Shown piece after piece: positions 28,460 to 34,162 of a DNA stretch of 40,381 nt. Origin of the DNA: Microcaldota archaeon (lineage in GTDB: Archaea > Micrarchaeota > Micrarchaeia > CABMEP01); assembly GCA_026413625.1 (NCBI GenBank), contig JAOAKO010000006.1, positions 1-40,381 of the forward strand. The letters are read 5' to 3'. A model generated the notes under the pieces. That model worked only from the letters and a program-made list of their open reading frames with translations. It did no database searches and had not been told where the DNA came from. The translations under genes were made by a program, and so were the position numbers. The stretch's first letter is position 1. Each line of letters opens with the position of its first letter.

Positions 28460-29017
28460 ATGAGATATGAACGGGCGGCCGACTTAGAAGAAAAAATAAG
28501 GGACATTGTTAAAACGCTGGGAATAACACATGTCAATCTTGAAAGAATAGCATGTTTCAGAAGCTATGGAACAAATTCAAGAAGAGTTGTTGCCAGATGC
28601 CATGGATTGCCTAAGGTAATGCAGCTCGGAATGAATACCGATGCTTTTTATGTCATTGAAGTCTTAACTGAGCGCTTTGAAAGAATGAGCGAGGAGGAGC
28701 AAACCAAAGTGCTGATCCACGAACTTCTCCATATACCCAAGTCTTTTGGCGGAGGATTCAGGCAGCACGATTATGTAAACAGAAAAACTGTCGACAAAAT
28801 TTATTCTGAATACAAATTAAGAAAGGAAAGGGATGGGCTAGCAAGCGAATCTCTTGACAGGCTAAGCGAATTGGAAATAGAAAGAATAAAACTGATTAGC
28901 GATGAAAGTAACGAAATAGAGCGCGTCAACAAAGAAGAAAGAAAGGATTGGCTGGCTGAGAAACTGAATAAATTCTTTATGAACAAAAAAGCCGAATACG
29001 AAAAACGGCAAAGGTGA
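28460..29017 (+). CDS. Putative zinc metallopeptidase (HExxH)
   Basis: The 185-aa protein has a central AFYVIEVLTERFERMSEEE followed by LIHELLHIPKSFGGGFRQH, giving His87-Glu88-x2-His91 and a third ligand candidate at His103. This is the pattern of the small archaeal/phage putative-metallopeptidase family. No signal peptide or TM is seen, so it is probably cytoplasmic. The C-terminal 65 residues are a charged helix, likely coiled coil. It overlaps the Shine-Dalgarno of the following membrane-anchored HTH gene, so the two are translated together. Substrate unknown. Confidence 0.83.
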   Translation: MRYERAADLEEKIRDIVKTLGITHVNLERIACFRSYGTNSRRVVARCHGLPKVMQLGMNTDAFYVIEVLTERFERMSEEEQTKVLIHELLHIPKSFGGGFRQHDYVNRKTVDKIYSEYKLRKERDGLASESLDRLSELEIERIKLISDESNEIERVNKEERKDWLAEKLNKFFMNKKAEYEKRQR

Positions 29018-29022
29018 ATAAT

Positions 29023-29469
29023 ATGGACAATAAGACTATAGCAATCTTAATTGCATTAAGCGGTGCAATCGGCGCAGTAACCAGTTTTGGCTTAATGTAT
29101 CTCATCCCAATTTCTTGCCCTTCTGTAATGGAATGGTATCACCAGGCGTTGATCTTCCTGATTCCTATCTTTTTAATTATATTTAGTCTTGGCGTATACA
29201 TTTTCTTCAAGCCTGAAACAATAAAGATAAAAAGAGTCATAAAGACAGGACGGATAGAAAAGATATTAACCCCTGAAGAAATAAAAATTATAGAATACCT
29301 TAAAGGAAAAGAATCTCCGACACAAGCGGACATAAGAAAAGACCTGAACGTTCCAAGGGCAACGCTTTCTGTGCTGCTTAGCAGAATGGAAAAAAGAAAT
29401 ATAATAAAAAGGGAAAAGATCGGAAAGAAAAACTATGTCAAACTTATTTTTGGTATTAGCCGTAAATAA
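29023..29469 (+). CDS. Membrane-anchored winged-helix transcription regulator
   Basis: The 148-aa protein has two N-terminal TMs (about 5-28 and 40-63) with a short external loop containing Cys, then a cytoplasmic winged helix: LTPEEIKIIEYLKGKESPTQ, ADIRKDLNVPRATLSVLLSR (recognition helix) and the wing REKIGKKNYVKL. The arrangement resembles archaeal membrane-bound MarR/TrmB-type regulators that sense envelope signals. AGGTGA at 29012-29017 serves the ATG at 29023 and contains the stop of the metallopeptidase gene. Just downstream lies the repeat-rich operator of the copper island, a possible target. Confidence 0.83.
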   Translation: MDNKTIAILIALSGAIGAVTSFGLMYLIPISCPSVMEWYHQALIFLIPIFLIIFSLGVYIFFKPETIKIKRVIKTGRIEKILTPEEIKIIEYLKGKESPTQADIRKDLNVPRATLSVLLSRMEKRNIIKREKIGKKNYVKLIFGISRK

Positions 29470-29471
29470 AA

Positions 29472-29526
29472 TGAACGAATCGGAACAAACGATCGTTCAT
29501 GATCGTTCAGAAATTGTTCGGACAAT
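29472..29526 (+). promoter_or_regulatory. Repeat-rich operator upstream of the copper island
   Basis: TGAACGA (29472-29478) is matched in inverse by TCGTTCA at 29493-29499 and again at 29503-29509. The last two lie in direct repeats GATCGTTCA with 10-bp spacing (29491 and 29501). An inverted repeat ATTGT-TCGG-ACAAT (29513-29526) follows and abuts the TATA box. Repeats on one helical face next to box A are typical of a repressor or activator site. The binding factor is unknown; the upstream HTH gene is the first candidate. Confidence 0.6.
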
Positions 29527-29529
29527 AAT

Positions 29530-29538
29530 GTATAAATT
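29530..29538 (+). promoter_or_regulatory. Box A of the copper island (leaderless start)
   Basis: GTATAAATT lies 22-30 nt before the ATG at 29560, the normal distance from box A to the transcription start. No Shine-Dalgarno is present, so the mRNA is probably leaderless. Confidence 0.55.
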
Positions 29539-29559
29539 AATTAATATGCATATACTTGC

Positions 29560-30810
29560 ATGAAAAAAATAGAACCTGAACACCAAACCGCAGATGAGTG
29601 TTATAAAACAGATAAAAACAGTCCGAATAAGAGCCATAAAAATGAAGATACAACAGCAAAACCCGATACTGAAATTATAGGCAAAATGAAAAAAATTGCA
29701 TTCTGGGGTTTTGTTTTTATTGGATTATATCTGATTATTAGCAACTTGCCGATATTTGCTCCCAAAGAAATTGATCCGAAGGCGGGATTGCTGATAGTAT
29801 TTTTCGTAGGATTTCTGACCAGCTTTCATTGCATAGGAATGTGCAGCGGATTAATCCTTGCATATTCGACCAATAATGAAGACAAAGGACTTAAGCCCCA
29901 TGCATGCTACAACTTAGGAAGGGTAGTTTCCTATACTGCATTAGGAGTTCTCTTGGGATTCATCGGCTCGGTTATTGCAATCACGGATCAGATACGAGGT
30001 TTTATCTCGCTCCTAGCTGGAATTTTCTTATTTTTATATGGATTAAGCATATTCTATCCAAAACTAAGAAAGTACACAATAATCCCTTCATTTAATATAT
30101 CACATAAGATTACAAAAAATCCCACCCTTATCGGACTGCTAAACGGATTTATGCCTTGCGGACCCCTACAAGCTATGCTGATATACTCTGCTGGAACTGG
30201 CAGCCCAATTCAGGGCGGTCTTACTATGCTTGCATTCGCTTTGGGTACTGTTCCTTTGATGTTCTTGGCTGGAGCGACTTTTACTAGAATAAATATGAAA
30301 TTGGCTTCAAACGCCACAAAATTTGCAAGCCTTCTTATGATAGTTCTCGGAATAATAATGCTGCAAAGGAGCGCTTTGTTGCTTGGCTTGCAGCTCCCCA
30401 TAGTCAACAACTATTCCTTTCTACAATCAGTTCACCAATCCGACTCATTCAAAGATGGGTATCAAACAATTTATATGAATATTACAAAGTATGGGTGGGA
30501 GCCAAGTACATTGCTTGTTGTAAAGGGCGTACCTGTTCGCTGGGTTGTAACTGCAAACGAATTGAATTATTGCAACAAAGGAATTAAAGTGCCAAAATTA
30601 GGAATAAGCTATACATTTAGCGCAAACGGAGAGCAAAAAATATTTGAATTCACTCCAAATGAAACTGGCACAATTTATTTCACCTGCTGGATGGGGATGA
30701 TACCTGGTGAAATCAAAGTTGTAGAGTCTGTCAGTGACCTAAATAAAACAAATACAACTGCAGCTCGTGGGACAAGCGGATGCGGATGCGGCGGCGGATG
30801 CCACATCTAG
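29560..30810 (+). CDS. SafE/DsbD-like membrane transporter fused to a cupredoxin domain
   Basis: The 416-aa protein has a polar N-terminus (1-42), a lead TM, then the six-TM SafE/UreH-like (DsbD_2) domain with FHCIGMCSG (about 89-97) and GFMPCGPLQ (about 196-204), the cysteines expected to relay electrons or bind metal. From about residue 300 a cupredoxin-like domain follows (YGWEPSTLLVVKGVPVRW, ELNYCNKGIKVPKLG, YFTCWMGMIPGEIKV), with Cys and Met as likely copper ligands. The tail SGCGCGGGCHI adds four cysteines. Bacterial copper-resistance proteins have the same fusion. It is the first gene before CopZ-like, DsbA-like and CopA, so copper handling at the envelope is likely. Confidence 0.85.
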   Translation: MKKIEPEHQTADECYKTDKNSPNKSHKNEDTTAKPDTEIIGKMKKIAFWGFVFIGLYLIISNLPIFAPKEIDPKAGLLIVFFVGFLTSFHCIGMCSGLILAYSTNNEDKGLKPHACYNLGRVVSYTALGVLLGFIGSVIAITDQIRGFISLLAGIFLFLYGLSIFYPKLRKYTIIPSFNISHKITKNPTLIGLLNGFMPCGPLQAMLIYSAGTGSPIQGGLTMLAFALGTVPLMFLAGATFTRINMKLASNATKFASLLMIVLGIIMLQRSALLLGLQLPIVNNYSFLQSVHQSDSFKDGYQTIYMNITKYGWEPSTLLVVKGVPVRWVVTANELNYCNKGIKVPKLGISYTFSANGEQKIFEFTPNETGTIYFTCWMGMIPGEIKVVESVSDLNKTNTTAARGTSGCGCGGGCHI

Positions 30811-30824
30811 AATGAGGGGTAGTG

Positions 30825-31085
30825 ATGAGATCGGTGCTGAAAGTGAAAATGCATTGCATTGGATGCGAAAAGACTTTAGAAAACGAAATATCCAGACTGG
30901 ATGGAGTGAAAAATGTAAAGGCGAATTATGTTGAAAACCAAGTTATAGTAGACTTCAATGAAAGATTAATCAATTTGAATAAAATAAAAGAAAAATTAGA
31001 AGAAATTGGATACGAAACGGATGCTAAGAAAAATCTGACAGAGAACAATAAGAAAAAAACAATATTTGATATTTTTAAGAGATGA
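30825..31085 (+). CDS. Heavy-metal-associated copper chaperone (CopZ-like)
   Basis: The 86-aa protein is a single HMA domain: VLKVKMHCIGCEKTLENEI with the metal-binding CIGC, followed by VKNVKANYVENQVIVDF and the KEKLEEIGYET end of the ferredoxin-like fold, plus a Lys-rich tail. It would carry Cu(I) to CopA or to the cupredoxin protein. ATG at 30825 follows GAGGGGT; the alternative GTG at 30822 is less likely. The gap from the upstream gene is 14 nt. Confidence 0.9.
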   Translation: MRSVLKVKMHCIGCEKTLENEISRLDGVKNVKANYVENQVIVDFNERLINLNKIKEKLEEIGYETDAKKNLTENNKKKTIFDIFKR

Positions 31086-31100
31086 CGACAAGGTGAGATC

Positions 31101-31916
31101 ATGGAATCTGGAATAGATAAAATGAATGAACATAAGGATGAAGGAGGAAAGACGGGAAAATTTGGTGCAAACATTTCTCTGATTTTATTCTTTATTTTTG
31201 GGATAGCAATCGTTGGCACATTGTATATGAATTATGACTTGAGCAAAAAAGTCAGTTCACTAAGCAGCGAGATAACTGCATTGAAGAATGAAACAACTTA
31301 CTTGAAGAATTCGTTGACGACAAGCCCGATAGATTTAAATAAGAAAATAAACGATTCGAATGTTAGCTCAAAATTAGTAATGTTTGGAAACTATACTTTT
31401 GATTTAACTGGACTGGAACCCCGTGGAAATCCTGATGCTCCGATAACCATAATCGAATACAGCGATTTTCAATGCCCATTCTGTAGCAAAGTTCAACCCA
31501 CAATTGAACAAATATTGAAAGACTATGATGGCAAAGTTAAAATTTATTATGAACAATTCCCTCTGACACAAATTCACCCTAATGCCCAAAAGGCAGCAGA
31601 GGCGTCTTTATTAGCTGCAGAACAAGGTAAATTCTGGGAATATCATGATATACTATTCAAGAACCAAGATAAACTAGACGTTAAATATCTAAAGGAATAT
31701 GCTTCACAATTGGGTTTGGATGCTGAGAAATTTAACTACGGGTTGGATTCTGGAATTAAGGCGCAGACAGTAAATAAAAACCTGCAAGAAGGAATAAAAA
31801 ACGGCGTACAGGGAACGCCTACATTCTTTATCAACGGCCATATCTTAACTGGTGCACAACCCTACTCCGTATTCAAGCAAATAATAGATTCAGAATTAAA
31901 TAGATTAGAACAGTGA
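31101..31916 (+). CDS. DsbA/BdbD-like membrane-anchored thiol oxidoreductase
   Basis: The 271-aa protein has one N-terminal TM (about 23-43), a short coiled coil, and a thioredoxin-fold domain with IEYSDFQCPFCSKVQP (active Cys125 and Cys128), FWEYHDILFKNQDKL, and the cis-Pro loop VQGTPTFFING. The catalytic domain faces outside. It likely forms or isomerises disulfides in secreted proteins, perhaps supplied with electrons by the SafE-like protein or used against copper-induced misoxidation. AGGTGAGATC directly precedes the ATG. Confidence 0.9.
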   Translation: MESGIDKMNEHKDEGGKTGKFGANISLILFFIFGIAIVGTLYMNYDLSKKVSSLSSEITALKNETTYLKNSLTTSPIDLNKKINDSNVSSKLVMFGNYTFDLTGLEPRGNPDAPITIIEYSDFQCPFCSKVQPTIEQILKDYDGKVKIYYEQFPLTQIHPNAQKAAEASLLAAEQGKFWEYHDILFKNQDKLDVKYLKEYASQLGLDAEKFNYGLDSGIKAQTVNKNLQEGIKNGVQGTPTFFINGHILTGAQPYSVFKQIIDSELNRLEQ

Positions 31917-31965
31917 TATTAATGTATTTAAAAGATTAATTATAATAAGACTTTAAGGGTTGTCT

Positions 31966-34146
31966 ATGAAAAAAATAACATTTGTGATAAGCGGAATGCA
32001 TTGTGTGAATTGCGCAAGAACAATAGAAAGGAATGTTAAAAGGCTGAAAGGAATCAAGAACGCAACTGTTAACTTCGCATCCGACACGGCATATGTTGAA
32101 TTTGACGATACGAAAGCTACAGTTGAGGAGATAAGGGAAATGGTTTCAGATGCTGGATACAGCGCGAAAGAAGTAAAATCTGCGATGGAAATAAGCGATA
32201 TAATAACTTCAACTAAAGAAAAAGAAATAGGGGAGTTAAGAAACAAGTTAATAATCAGTATAATACTAAGCATCCCGATTGCAGCATTAAGCATGTGGAC
32301 AGATCTTCAAATAGAAAACAAAAAAATGCTGATGTTTTTGCTTGCTACTCCGGTCCAGCTATGGATAGGTTGGATATTCTATAAGGGCACGTATGCCGCA
32401 TTAAGAAATAGAACCGCAAACATGGATACGCTGATCGCGATAGGCACCTCCGCAGCTTATCTCTACAGCATTGCCAACACTTTCTTTCTTGAAGGGGAGG
32501 TGTTTTATGAAACATCGGCATTGCTAATCACGTTTGTTCTCTTAGGCAAATATCTGGAAAAAATGACAAAGGGAAAGGCTGGAGAGGCGATTAAAAAGCT
32601 GATTGAAATAAGACCTAAAACTGCAATGATCTTGAGGAATGGAAGGGAAATCGAAGTTTCTATAGAAAAAGTTAGAGTTGGAGATATTGTTGTCATACGT
32701 CCTGGAGAAAGAATTCCAGTGGATGGGGTTGTCATAAAAGGATACTCTTCTGTTGATGAAAGTATGATAACGGGGGAGAGCATTCCTGCAGAGAAAAGCA
32801 AGGGCTCAAAAGTGATTGGCGGAACTATTAATAAGCACGGCAGTTTGATTATAAAAGCAACAAAAGTCGGAGAGGACTCAGTATTATCAAGGATAATTTC
32901 ATTCATAAAAGAAGCTCAGCTTACGAAAGCAGAAATAGAAACATTTGCGGACAGGGTGTCATCGTATTTCGTACCTGCAGTTGTTACATTTTCCGCAATA
33001 ACCTTTGTTACATGGTACTTCCTATTTAATGCTGGACTTACCTTCAGCCTTATGACTGCGGTTGCTGTTCTTGTGATCGCGTGCCCTTGCGCTTTAGGGC
33101 TTGCTACTCCGACAGCGGTAATGGTAGGAGTTGGAAAGGGAGCGGAAAAAGGAATCTTAATAAGAGGCGGGGAGGCTCTAGAAAAGATTGAAAGGGTTAC
33201 GACGATCGTATTTGACAAGACTGGAACCCTGACGGAAGGAAAGCCGAGGGTTACAGATGTTATCACTGAAGAAAAAGCAGGGATGAATGAAAAAGAACTG
33301 ATAAAATATGCAGCTATTGCGGAAAAAAGGTCTGAACATCCGCTCGCAGATGCGATATTGGAATATGCAAGGAATAAAAAAATAAAAGTGTCAGATCCGG
33401 ACAAATTTGAAACCTTTCCAGGGGGAGGAATAAAAGCAGTCCATTCAAATAAGGAAATAATTTTAGGGAACACAAGATTTATAGAAAAGCAAGGAATCAG
33501 ATACAAAAGGAAGACGGTAGAGGATTTAGAGAAGCTCGGTAGGACGGTAGCTATAATCGCAGTTAACAAAAATGTAATTGGATATGTTGGAATATCTGAT
33601 AAATTAAGGACAGAAGCAAAACAAGTTGTATCCGAACTTAAAGGAATGCGCAAAAGAGTTGTTCTGCTGACTGGTGACAACAAGAGAACGGCCATGGCAA
33701 TAGCAAAGGAGGCGGGAATAGACGATGTAATATCGGAGGTAGGTCCGGAGGAAAAGGCAAGCGTAATAAAGAAACTTCAAGACGAAGGAGAGTTTGTAGC
33801 AATGGTAGGGGATGGAATAAACGATGCTCCTGCATTAGCGAAAGCAAACGTCGCAATTGTAATGGGAAGCGGAAGCGATATTGCTATTGAGACCGGCGAG
33901 ATAATACTTATGAGAAGCAAGCCGAGCGACATATTGACGGCATTTAAGCTTAGCAAAGCAACAATTAATAAAATAAGGCAAAATATGTTCTGGGCATTGA
34001 TTTATAATGTACTTGGAATACCGATCGCTGCAGGTGTTCTTGTTTCATACGGAATAACATTAAAGCCGGAAATTGCTGGATTAGCCATGGCATTAAGCTC
34101 AGTGTCGGTCGTTACAAATTCATTGCTGCTCAGAACTTTCAGATAA
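31966..34146 (+). CDS. copA: Cu(I)-exporting P-type ATPase CopA
   Basis: The 726-aa P1B-1 ATPase has one HMA domain (MHCVNC, Cys13 and Cys16), eight TMs, TGES at 269-272, the CPC metal site at 373-375 (ACPCALGLATP), DKTGTLT with phosphorylated Asp417, SEHPLA in the N domain and GDGINDAPAL from 615. Every catalytic motif is intact. It exports Cu(I) or Ag(I). ATG at 31966 follows GGGT; an in-frame TTG at 31960 is less likely. It is the last gene of the copper island and converges with the pilin-like operon, 16 nt away. Confidence 0.95.
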   Translation: MKKITFVISGMHCVNCARTIERNVKRLKGIKNATVNFASDTAYVEFDDTKATVEEIREMVSDAGYSAKEVKSAMEISDIITSTKEKEIGELRNKLIISIILSIPIAALSMWTDLQIENKKMLMFLLATPVQLWIGWIFYKGTYAALRNRTANMDTLIAIGTSAAYLYSIANTFFLEGEVFYETSALLITFVLLGKYLEKMTKGKAGEAIKKLIEIRPKTAMILRNGREIEVSIEKVRVGDIVVIRPGERIPVDGVVIKGYSSVDESMITGESIPAEKSKGSKVIGGTINKHGSLIIKATKVGEDSVLSRIISFIKEAQLTKAEIETFADRVSSYFVPAVVTFSAITFVTWYFLFNAGLTFSLMTAVAVLVIACPCALGLATPTAVMVGVGKGAEKGILIRGGEALEKIERVTTIVFDKTGTLTEGKPRVTDVITEEKAGMNEKELIKYAAIAEKRSEHPLADAILEYARNKKIKVSDPDKFETFPGGGIKAVHSNKEIILGNTRFIEKQGIRYKRKTVEDLEKLGRTVAIIAVNKNVIGYVGISDKLRTEAKQVVSELKGMRKRVVLLTGDNKRTAMAIAKEAGIDDVISEVGPEEKASVIKKLQDEGEFVAMVGDGINDAPALAKANVAIVMGSGSDIAIETGEIILMRSKPSDILTAFKLSKATINKIRQNMFWALIYNVLGIPIAAGVLVSYGITLKPEIAGLAMALSSVSVVTNSLLLRTFR

Positions 34147-34162
34147 ATGGTCTTAAAACATA

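Follow-up and report, generated by a model that had tools for sequence, protein, structure and literature searches.

What reads the cluster of short repeats that precedes a copper operon in a Microcaldota archaeon, and is the cluster more than an accident of sequence? The repeats lie on contig JAOAKO010000006.1 of assembly GCA_026413625.1, in a stretch of 40,381 nt that was analyzed as a whole and that we call the window. The initial annotation had noted TGAACGA at 29472 and two inverse copies, TCGTTCA, at 29493 and 29503 (10 bp apart), and had proposed an operator at a leaderless copper promoter. All three copies are present, and we add two further half-sites at 29482 and 29514. The features of the locus are listed below, with the corresponding half-sites at two promoters of the related genome LFW-242_1 (L007, ahead of its copper operon, and L072, ahead of a second operon).

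28460..29017 (+): cytosolic metallopeptidase (PF18894); belongs to the conserved flank, not to the module
29023..29469 (+): membrane-anchored winged-helix regulator (mHTH), proposed reader of the array; two TM helices and a cytoplasmic wHTH of MarR/DUF7343 type
29472..29478 (-): half-site 1, TGAACGA (TCGTTCA reversed); LFW-242_1 counterpart in the same orientation (L007:2236)
29482..29488 (-): half-site 2, GGAACAA (TTGTTCC reversed), 10 bp after half-site 1; new relative to the initial annotation
29493..29499 (+): half-site 3, TCGTTCA, 11 bp after half-site 2; kept in L007 and L072
29503..29509 (+): half-site 4, TCGTTCA, 10 bp after half-site 3; CCGTTCC in L007, TCGTTCA in L072
29514..29520 (+): half-site 5, TTGTTCG, 11 bp after half-site 4; TTGTTCT in L007, TCGTTCA in L072
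29531..29537 (+): TATA box, TATAAAT; half-site 5 starts 17 bp ahead of it and the ATG comes 29 nt after it; BRE expected immediately upstream
29560..30810 (+): first copper-operon gene, encoding a fusion of a DsbD_2 membrane domain and a cupredoxin domain (PF13386, E 3e-48; Cupredoxin_1, E 9e-4)
30822..31085 (+): CopZ-like heavy-metal-associated (HMA) chaperone (PF00403, E 2e-16)
31101..31916 (+): membrane-anchored DsbA-like thioredoxin (PF13462, E 1e-30); the LFW-242_1 copper operon is without it
31960..34146 (+): CopA-type copper P1B-ATPase (TIGR01511, E 1e-192)

The five half-sites share the consensus [TC][CT]GTTC and follow one another in steps of 10, 11, 10 and 11 bp, two of them pointing leftward and three rightward. 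At this spacing of ~10.5 bp all of them lie on the same face of the helix. The array is 49 bp long (29472-29520), starts 3 nt past the stop codon of mHTH (29469) and spans about -85 to -37 relative to the predicted start, wholly upstream of BRE and TATA. The transcript of the copper operon is probably leaderless because its ATG (29560) lies only 29 nt beyond the TATA box.

The initial annotation had also described a palindrome, ATTGT-N4-ACAAT, as touching box A. The sequence is present in the window (ATTGTTCGGACAAT at 29513), but "touching" was loose, as 10 bp separate the end of the array from TATAAA at 29531. We dropped the palindrome as a separate element: only its left half is kept in LFW-242_1, where the ACAAT half is missing. 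That left half reads as half-site 5, the third of the direct repeats. The same comparison bears on a possible role of part of the array at the RNA level, for instance in terminating the mHTH transcript or as a leader structure. The start of the array just past the mHTH stop codon and its inverted elements would suit such a role. We nevertheless consider it highly improbable, because the predicted start at or next to the ATG leaves the array outside the operon RNA, and because what is kept is the direct repeats with their helical steps and not the palindromic part.

Chance, rarity and conservation of the array

Density and phasing had been said to exceed chance in a stretch of ~55 bp, a claim that the shuffles do not bear out. 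Of 200 dinucleotide shuffles of the 40-kb window, 51 hold three copies of some 7-mer inside 45 bp, and with two mismatches allowed 14 of 100 shuffles yield at least five half-sites in phase. The internal clustering of the array alone is no more than chance yields and is not significant by itself, so density was dropped as proof of function. The array stands above chance because it is conserved in another genus and because its exact pair is rare. The genome scan for paired motifs that the initial annotation had suggested gave a single exact TCGTTCA-N3-TCGTTCA in the 484-kb assembly of the window, at the copper promoter; the pair occurs in 3 of 196 genomes of the class.

The family is sampled by three genomes: the window assembly (G000, 54% complete), the Micrarchaeota MAG LFW-242_1 (G001) from the family's other genus, and G002 (92% complete), which belongs to the same genus as the window genome. 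LFW-242_1 has been placed as "LFWA-III related" among Micrarchaeota (PMC8561730). It is the only other genome of the three with the copper operon, and a scan of further genome contigs for more relatives returned nothing beyond LFW-242_1 itself. On its contig CABMEP010000018.1 the gene order is metallopeptidase, mHTH (54% identical to that of the window), a gap, DsbD-cupredoxin, HMA protein and CopA. The gap (L007) holds six half-sites, at 2226(-), 2236(-), 2248, 2257, 2267 and 2278 (steps of 10, 12, 9, 10 and 11 bp), followed by an AT-rich TATA-like element at L007:2294, 16 bp after the start of the last repeat. The best ungapped segment between the two gaps scored 24, against a maximum of 14 in shuffles (0 of 2000 shuffled pairs reached it).

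A second promoter of LFW-242_1, unlinked to its copper operon, carries the array as well. At L072:1516 (contig C30 of G001), three copies of TCGTTCA are separated by tga and gcta, giving steps of 10 and 11 bp, and the last of them starts 17 bp before a TATATT at 1554. The distance from the start of the last repeat to the TATA-like box is thus 16-17 bp at all three array promoters. Compared with the window promoter, this second promoter gave a match score of 23, whereas the null maximum was 15 in 1000. A binning error is unlikely because the tetranucleotide profile of the contig agrees with those of the other G001 contigs (r 0.82-0.87). The operon behind it (L072:1516-3478) encodes a thioredoxin-like membrane protein and, after it, a class V aminotransferase of cysteine-desulfurase type. 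Copper harms iron-sulphur clusters and thiols, so a thioredoxin-like/cysteine-desulfurase pair would fit a copper response.

The three-repeat pattern YCGTTC-N4-YCGTTC-N5-TYGTTC (27 bp) has three exact matches across the three family genomes: the window copper promoter, the LFW-242_1 copper promoter and the LFW-242_1 thioredoxin-like/SufS-type promoter. Near-matches with 1-2 mismatches (G000:C10:2349, G002:C4:19876 and G001:C10:8991) were taken as chance; in G000 and G002 near-matches are about as frequent as those of a reversed-pattern control.

Because the array of LFW-242_1 stands ahead of the same operon and also of a second one, the reading of 29472-29520 as the putative operator of a near-leaderless copper-operon promoter is well supported, in line with what had first been proposed.

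Absence from a genome of the same genus

In G002 neither mHTH nor a close Cu-ATPase was found (the best match is partial, at 32% identity), and the exact three-repeat array was not found anywhere in the genome. The flanking genes are kept: the gene before the peptidase, the metallopeptidase and the pilin-like gene are 34%, 57% and 55% identical to their window homologues. The syntenic gap between these flanking genes (282 bp, L101:1252-1533) contains zero half-sites. The thioredoxin gene kept in G002 (73% identical) likewise has a promoter without the array.

Set against window positions 29018-34162, the gap of L101:1252-1533 marks a block of ~5.1 kb, comprising mHTH, array and copper genes, that was gained or lost while the flanks were kept. 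Loss in G002 is the simpler reading, because the block of LFW-242_1 sits at the same place, between the peptidase and pilin-like genes. Array, regulator and copper operon would thus have been gained or lost together, as judged from three genomes and few independent events. We also considered regulated proteolysis by the metallopeptidase as part of the module; this is unsupported, as G002 has the peptidase without mHTH or the operon.

These comparisons weigh on the most skeptical reading, in which the array is a chance cluster of a 7-mer without function. The frequency of tripled 7-mers in shuffles of the window would permit it. It is already disfavoured, and we give it almost no credence: sequence and spacing are kept in another genus, a second exact site precedes another gene, and the array is missing from G002 at both the syntenic locus and the orthologous thioredoxin promoter.

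The membrane-anchored candidate reader and its relatives

The initial annotation had left the binder as either the adjacent membrane-anchored HTH protein or an unlinked metal regulator. Presence and absence of mHTH match those of the array in 3 of 3 family genomes, which favors the former, and a TRASH domain (PF08394) gave no match over the cut-off in G000, G001 or G002, mHTH included. mHTH has 148 aa and combines TM helices and a DNA-binding HTH in one polypeptide (AlphaFold2; Pfam MarR/DUF7343). The AlphaFold2 model (26 sequences; mean pLDDT 80.9, pTM 0.46) has helices at 3-25 and 33-62, a linker and a wHTH at 84-141. Among solved folds, the DNA-binding half comes nearest to CadC/ArsR, MepR/MarR and MecI, with one match at E <0.001. 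The outer loop carries C32 and H40 in the window protein, and the window and G001 proteins share C-x7-H there. The gene is co-directional with the copper operon in the window and in LFW-242_1, and does not share the operator promoter.

Weak homologues of mHTH occur in many genomes of the class (17-32% identity). They frequently lie divergent beside cupredoxin or HMA-DsbD-cupredoxin genes, and the window mHTH likewise neighbors DsbD-cupredoxin/HMA copper genes. Homologues beside cupredoxin genes match the window mHTH at E about 1e-10 to 1e-4 and 17-27% identity, with only Q101, G134, K135 and N137 invariant. In many homologues the loop that joins the two TM helices contains CxxxGxCxHE; in others it has only YH. 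Upstream of the homologues, with the family of the window excluded, TGAAAC is the commonest 6-mer (25 of 26 loci). Its same-strand distances are mostly 21, 22, 42, 43, 64 and 65 bp, close to multiples of the helical turn, and a pair at 21/22 bp occurs in 19 of 28 loci compared with none in 300 shuffle sets.

A genome-wide search for TGAAAC-N16-TGAAAC that was blind to genes returned 87 exact sites in the 196 genomes. Thirty-one of the 87 lie at most 500 bp upstream of an mHTH match and on its strand, and 40 adjoin an mHTH or cupredoxin match. Nearly all of those sites have a TATA-like core, AATAYWTAT, between the two half-sites. The arrangement of a TGAAAC pair around such a core, upstream of mHTH genes that face cupredoxin or HMA-DsbD-cupredoxin genes, recurs at ~40 places (L038-L054 and L009-L031).

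Some loci depart from this pattern. Three mHTH relatives (L010, L028 and L034) have CTQHC or CSHGPSC loops and no TGAAAC arrays, and their genomes gave no cupredoxin matches. Four TGAAAC-N16-TGAAAC sites with a TATA-like core lie away from detected mHTH or cupredoxin genes (G191:C62:1356, G110:C17:9083, G057:C32:98 and G074:C11:9469) and are possible further members of the regulon.

We put the probability that the array is read by the adjacent mHTH (29023-29469) at roughly two in three. This protein is favored as the binder because it co-occurs with the array in the family and because its distant relatives adjoin phased arrays. The alternative of a genuine operator that serves an unlinked soluble regulator (of CopR/TRASH, ArsR, CsoR or MarR type), with mHTH a passenger or acting elsewhere, is unlikely. 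Five phased half-sites would also suit an oligomer, such as the octameric CopR (PMC7830388), and in this family the array is not positioned to drive the mHTH gene. Against a soluble regulator stand the search for TRASH domains, the soluble type that was covered, which gave none above the cut-off in the three family genomes, the class-wide phased arrays between mHTH and cupredoxin genes, including the 31 sites close upstream of mHTH, and the joint absence of mHTH, array and operon from G002.

If mHTH is the reader, its DNA-binding domains would bind the five GTTC-core half-sites cooperatively along one face of the helix while the protein stays held in the membrane. The Cys and His of the outer loop could bind copper, and the protein would sense copper or thiol state; we infer that copper is the signal. 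Bound upstream of BRE/TATA, the regulator would help TFB/TBP to load, and the DsbD-cupredoxin/CopZ/DsbA/CopA operon would be turned on in response to copper or to thiol stress in the envelope. In LFW-242_1 the same operator would also control the thioredoxin-like/cysteine-desulfurase operon.

The direction of the effect is less certain than the identity of the reader. Winged-helix proteins of the MarR/ArsR-like kind are mostly repressors, and the TGAAAC pairs of the class flank the TATA-like core, a position that would block TBP/TFB. Both points would suit an mHTH repressor that is released by copper, which we consider somewhat unlikely, because at the window, LFW-242_1 and thioredoxin promoters the repeats lie wholly upstream of BRE/TATA, the published position of activator sites (TrmBL1, Tgr and CopR; PMC4158304, PMC7830388). 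Archaeal activator sites directly upstream of BRE are known for CopR of P. furiosus (PMC7830388) and for TrmBL1/Tgr (PMC4158304), and because the array takes their position we lean slightly towards activation, given that mHTH binds.

How far does the class-wide pairing of mHTH and phased arrays extend to the window? The recognition helix is RATLSVLLSRME in the window versus RxKAHRIVxRLE in the relatives, and the half-site is TCGTTCA versus GTTTCA (TGAAAC). Unlike its relatives in the class, the window has no TGAAAC half-site and no divergent mHTH that shares the operator. Because the half-sites differ and the window mHTH has low identity to the relatives, the pairing extends to the window only by analogy, and the window system reads as a divergent branch of it. 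More tentatively, at somewhat short of even odds, we envisage an archaeal system, not described before, that spans the class, in which small wHTH proteins with two TM helices sense copper or thiol state in the outer loop and, without leaving the membrane, grip phased arrays at the promoters of cupredoxin and copper-export genes. Half-site and recognition helix would have changed together between lineages, and the array would have moved from flanking TATA to a place upstream of BRE.

Comparison with known systems

Almost nothing is known of the regulators and operators of DPANN archaea, and there has been scarcely any work on archaeal transcription factors bound to the membrane. The locus offers a concrete proposal: one protein, one half-site, two target operons and a rule for the spacing. 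A genome of the same genus naturally lacks the entire module, and many relatives have arrays of their own. Together these make the reading of promoter DNA by a membrane-tethered archaeal protein directly testable, and offer a way into copper sensing in three genomes where a TRASH-type regulator was not found. In the open-access literature we found no account of the array operator or of mHTH-cupredoxin pairs.

Among the closest known systems is CopR of Pyrococcus furiosus and Thermococcus (Lrp family with TRASH; PMC7830388). Its operator also lies directly upstream of the BRE/TATA of a copA-type operon, its contacts are helically spaced and its regulon extends beyond copA. CopR differs in being soluble and octameric and in its operator motif, TTNNCAWWWTGNNAA (PMC7830388), which is not what the array contains; the window has [TC][CT]GTTC half-sites with a GTTC core, and the regulator proposed for it has two TM helices and lacks a TRASH domain.

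ArnR and ArnR1 of Sulfolobus acidocaldarius (PMC6396743) resemble mHTH as archaeal membrane-bound one-component HTH regulators. They are activators that require two promoter boxes, and the 2019 paper describes them as the first archaeal membrane-bound regulators to be studied (PMC6396743). The published architecture sets them apart: ArnR has an N-terminal HTH, C-terminal TM helices and HAMP-like and sensor domains, while mHTH has the reverse order in 148 aa and no sensor domain. The targets of ArnR are the archaellum and pili, not copper genes (PMC6396743).

TrmBL1/Tgr of Thermococcales (PMC4158304) share the wHTH and supply the position rule, by which a site upstream of BRE/TATA activates and one downstream represses. 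Unlike mHTH, they are soluble and sugar-binding and recognize the palindrome TATCAC-N5-GTGATA (PMC4158304). The MarR/DUF7343 and ArsR-type winged helices (CadC pI258, CzrA, MepR and MecI) share the fold of the DNA-binding half of mHTH, but are soluble repressors to whose families two TM helices are foreign. Membrane-bound archaeal regulators (ArnR) and copper operators upstream of BRE (CopR) were already known kinds, and the window locus differs from them in its candidate regulator, domain order, half-site and array.
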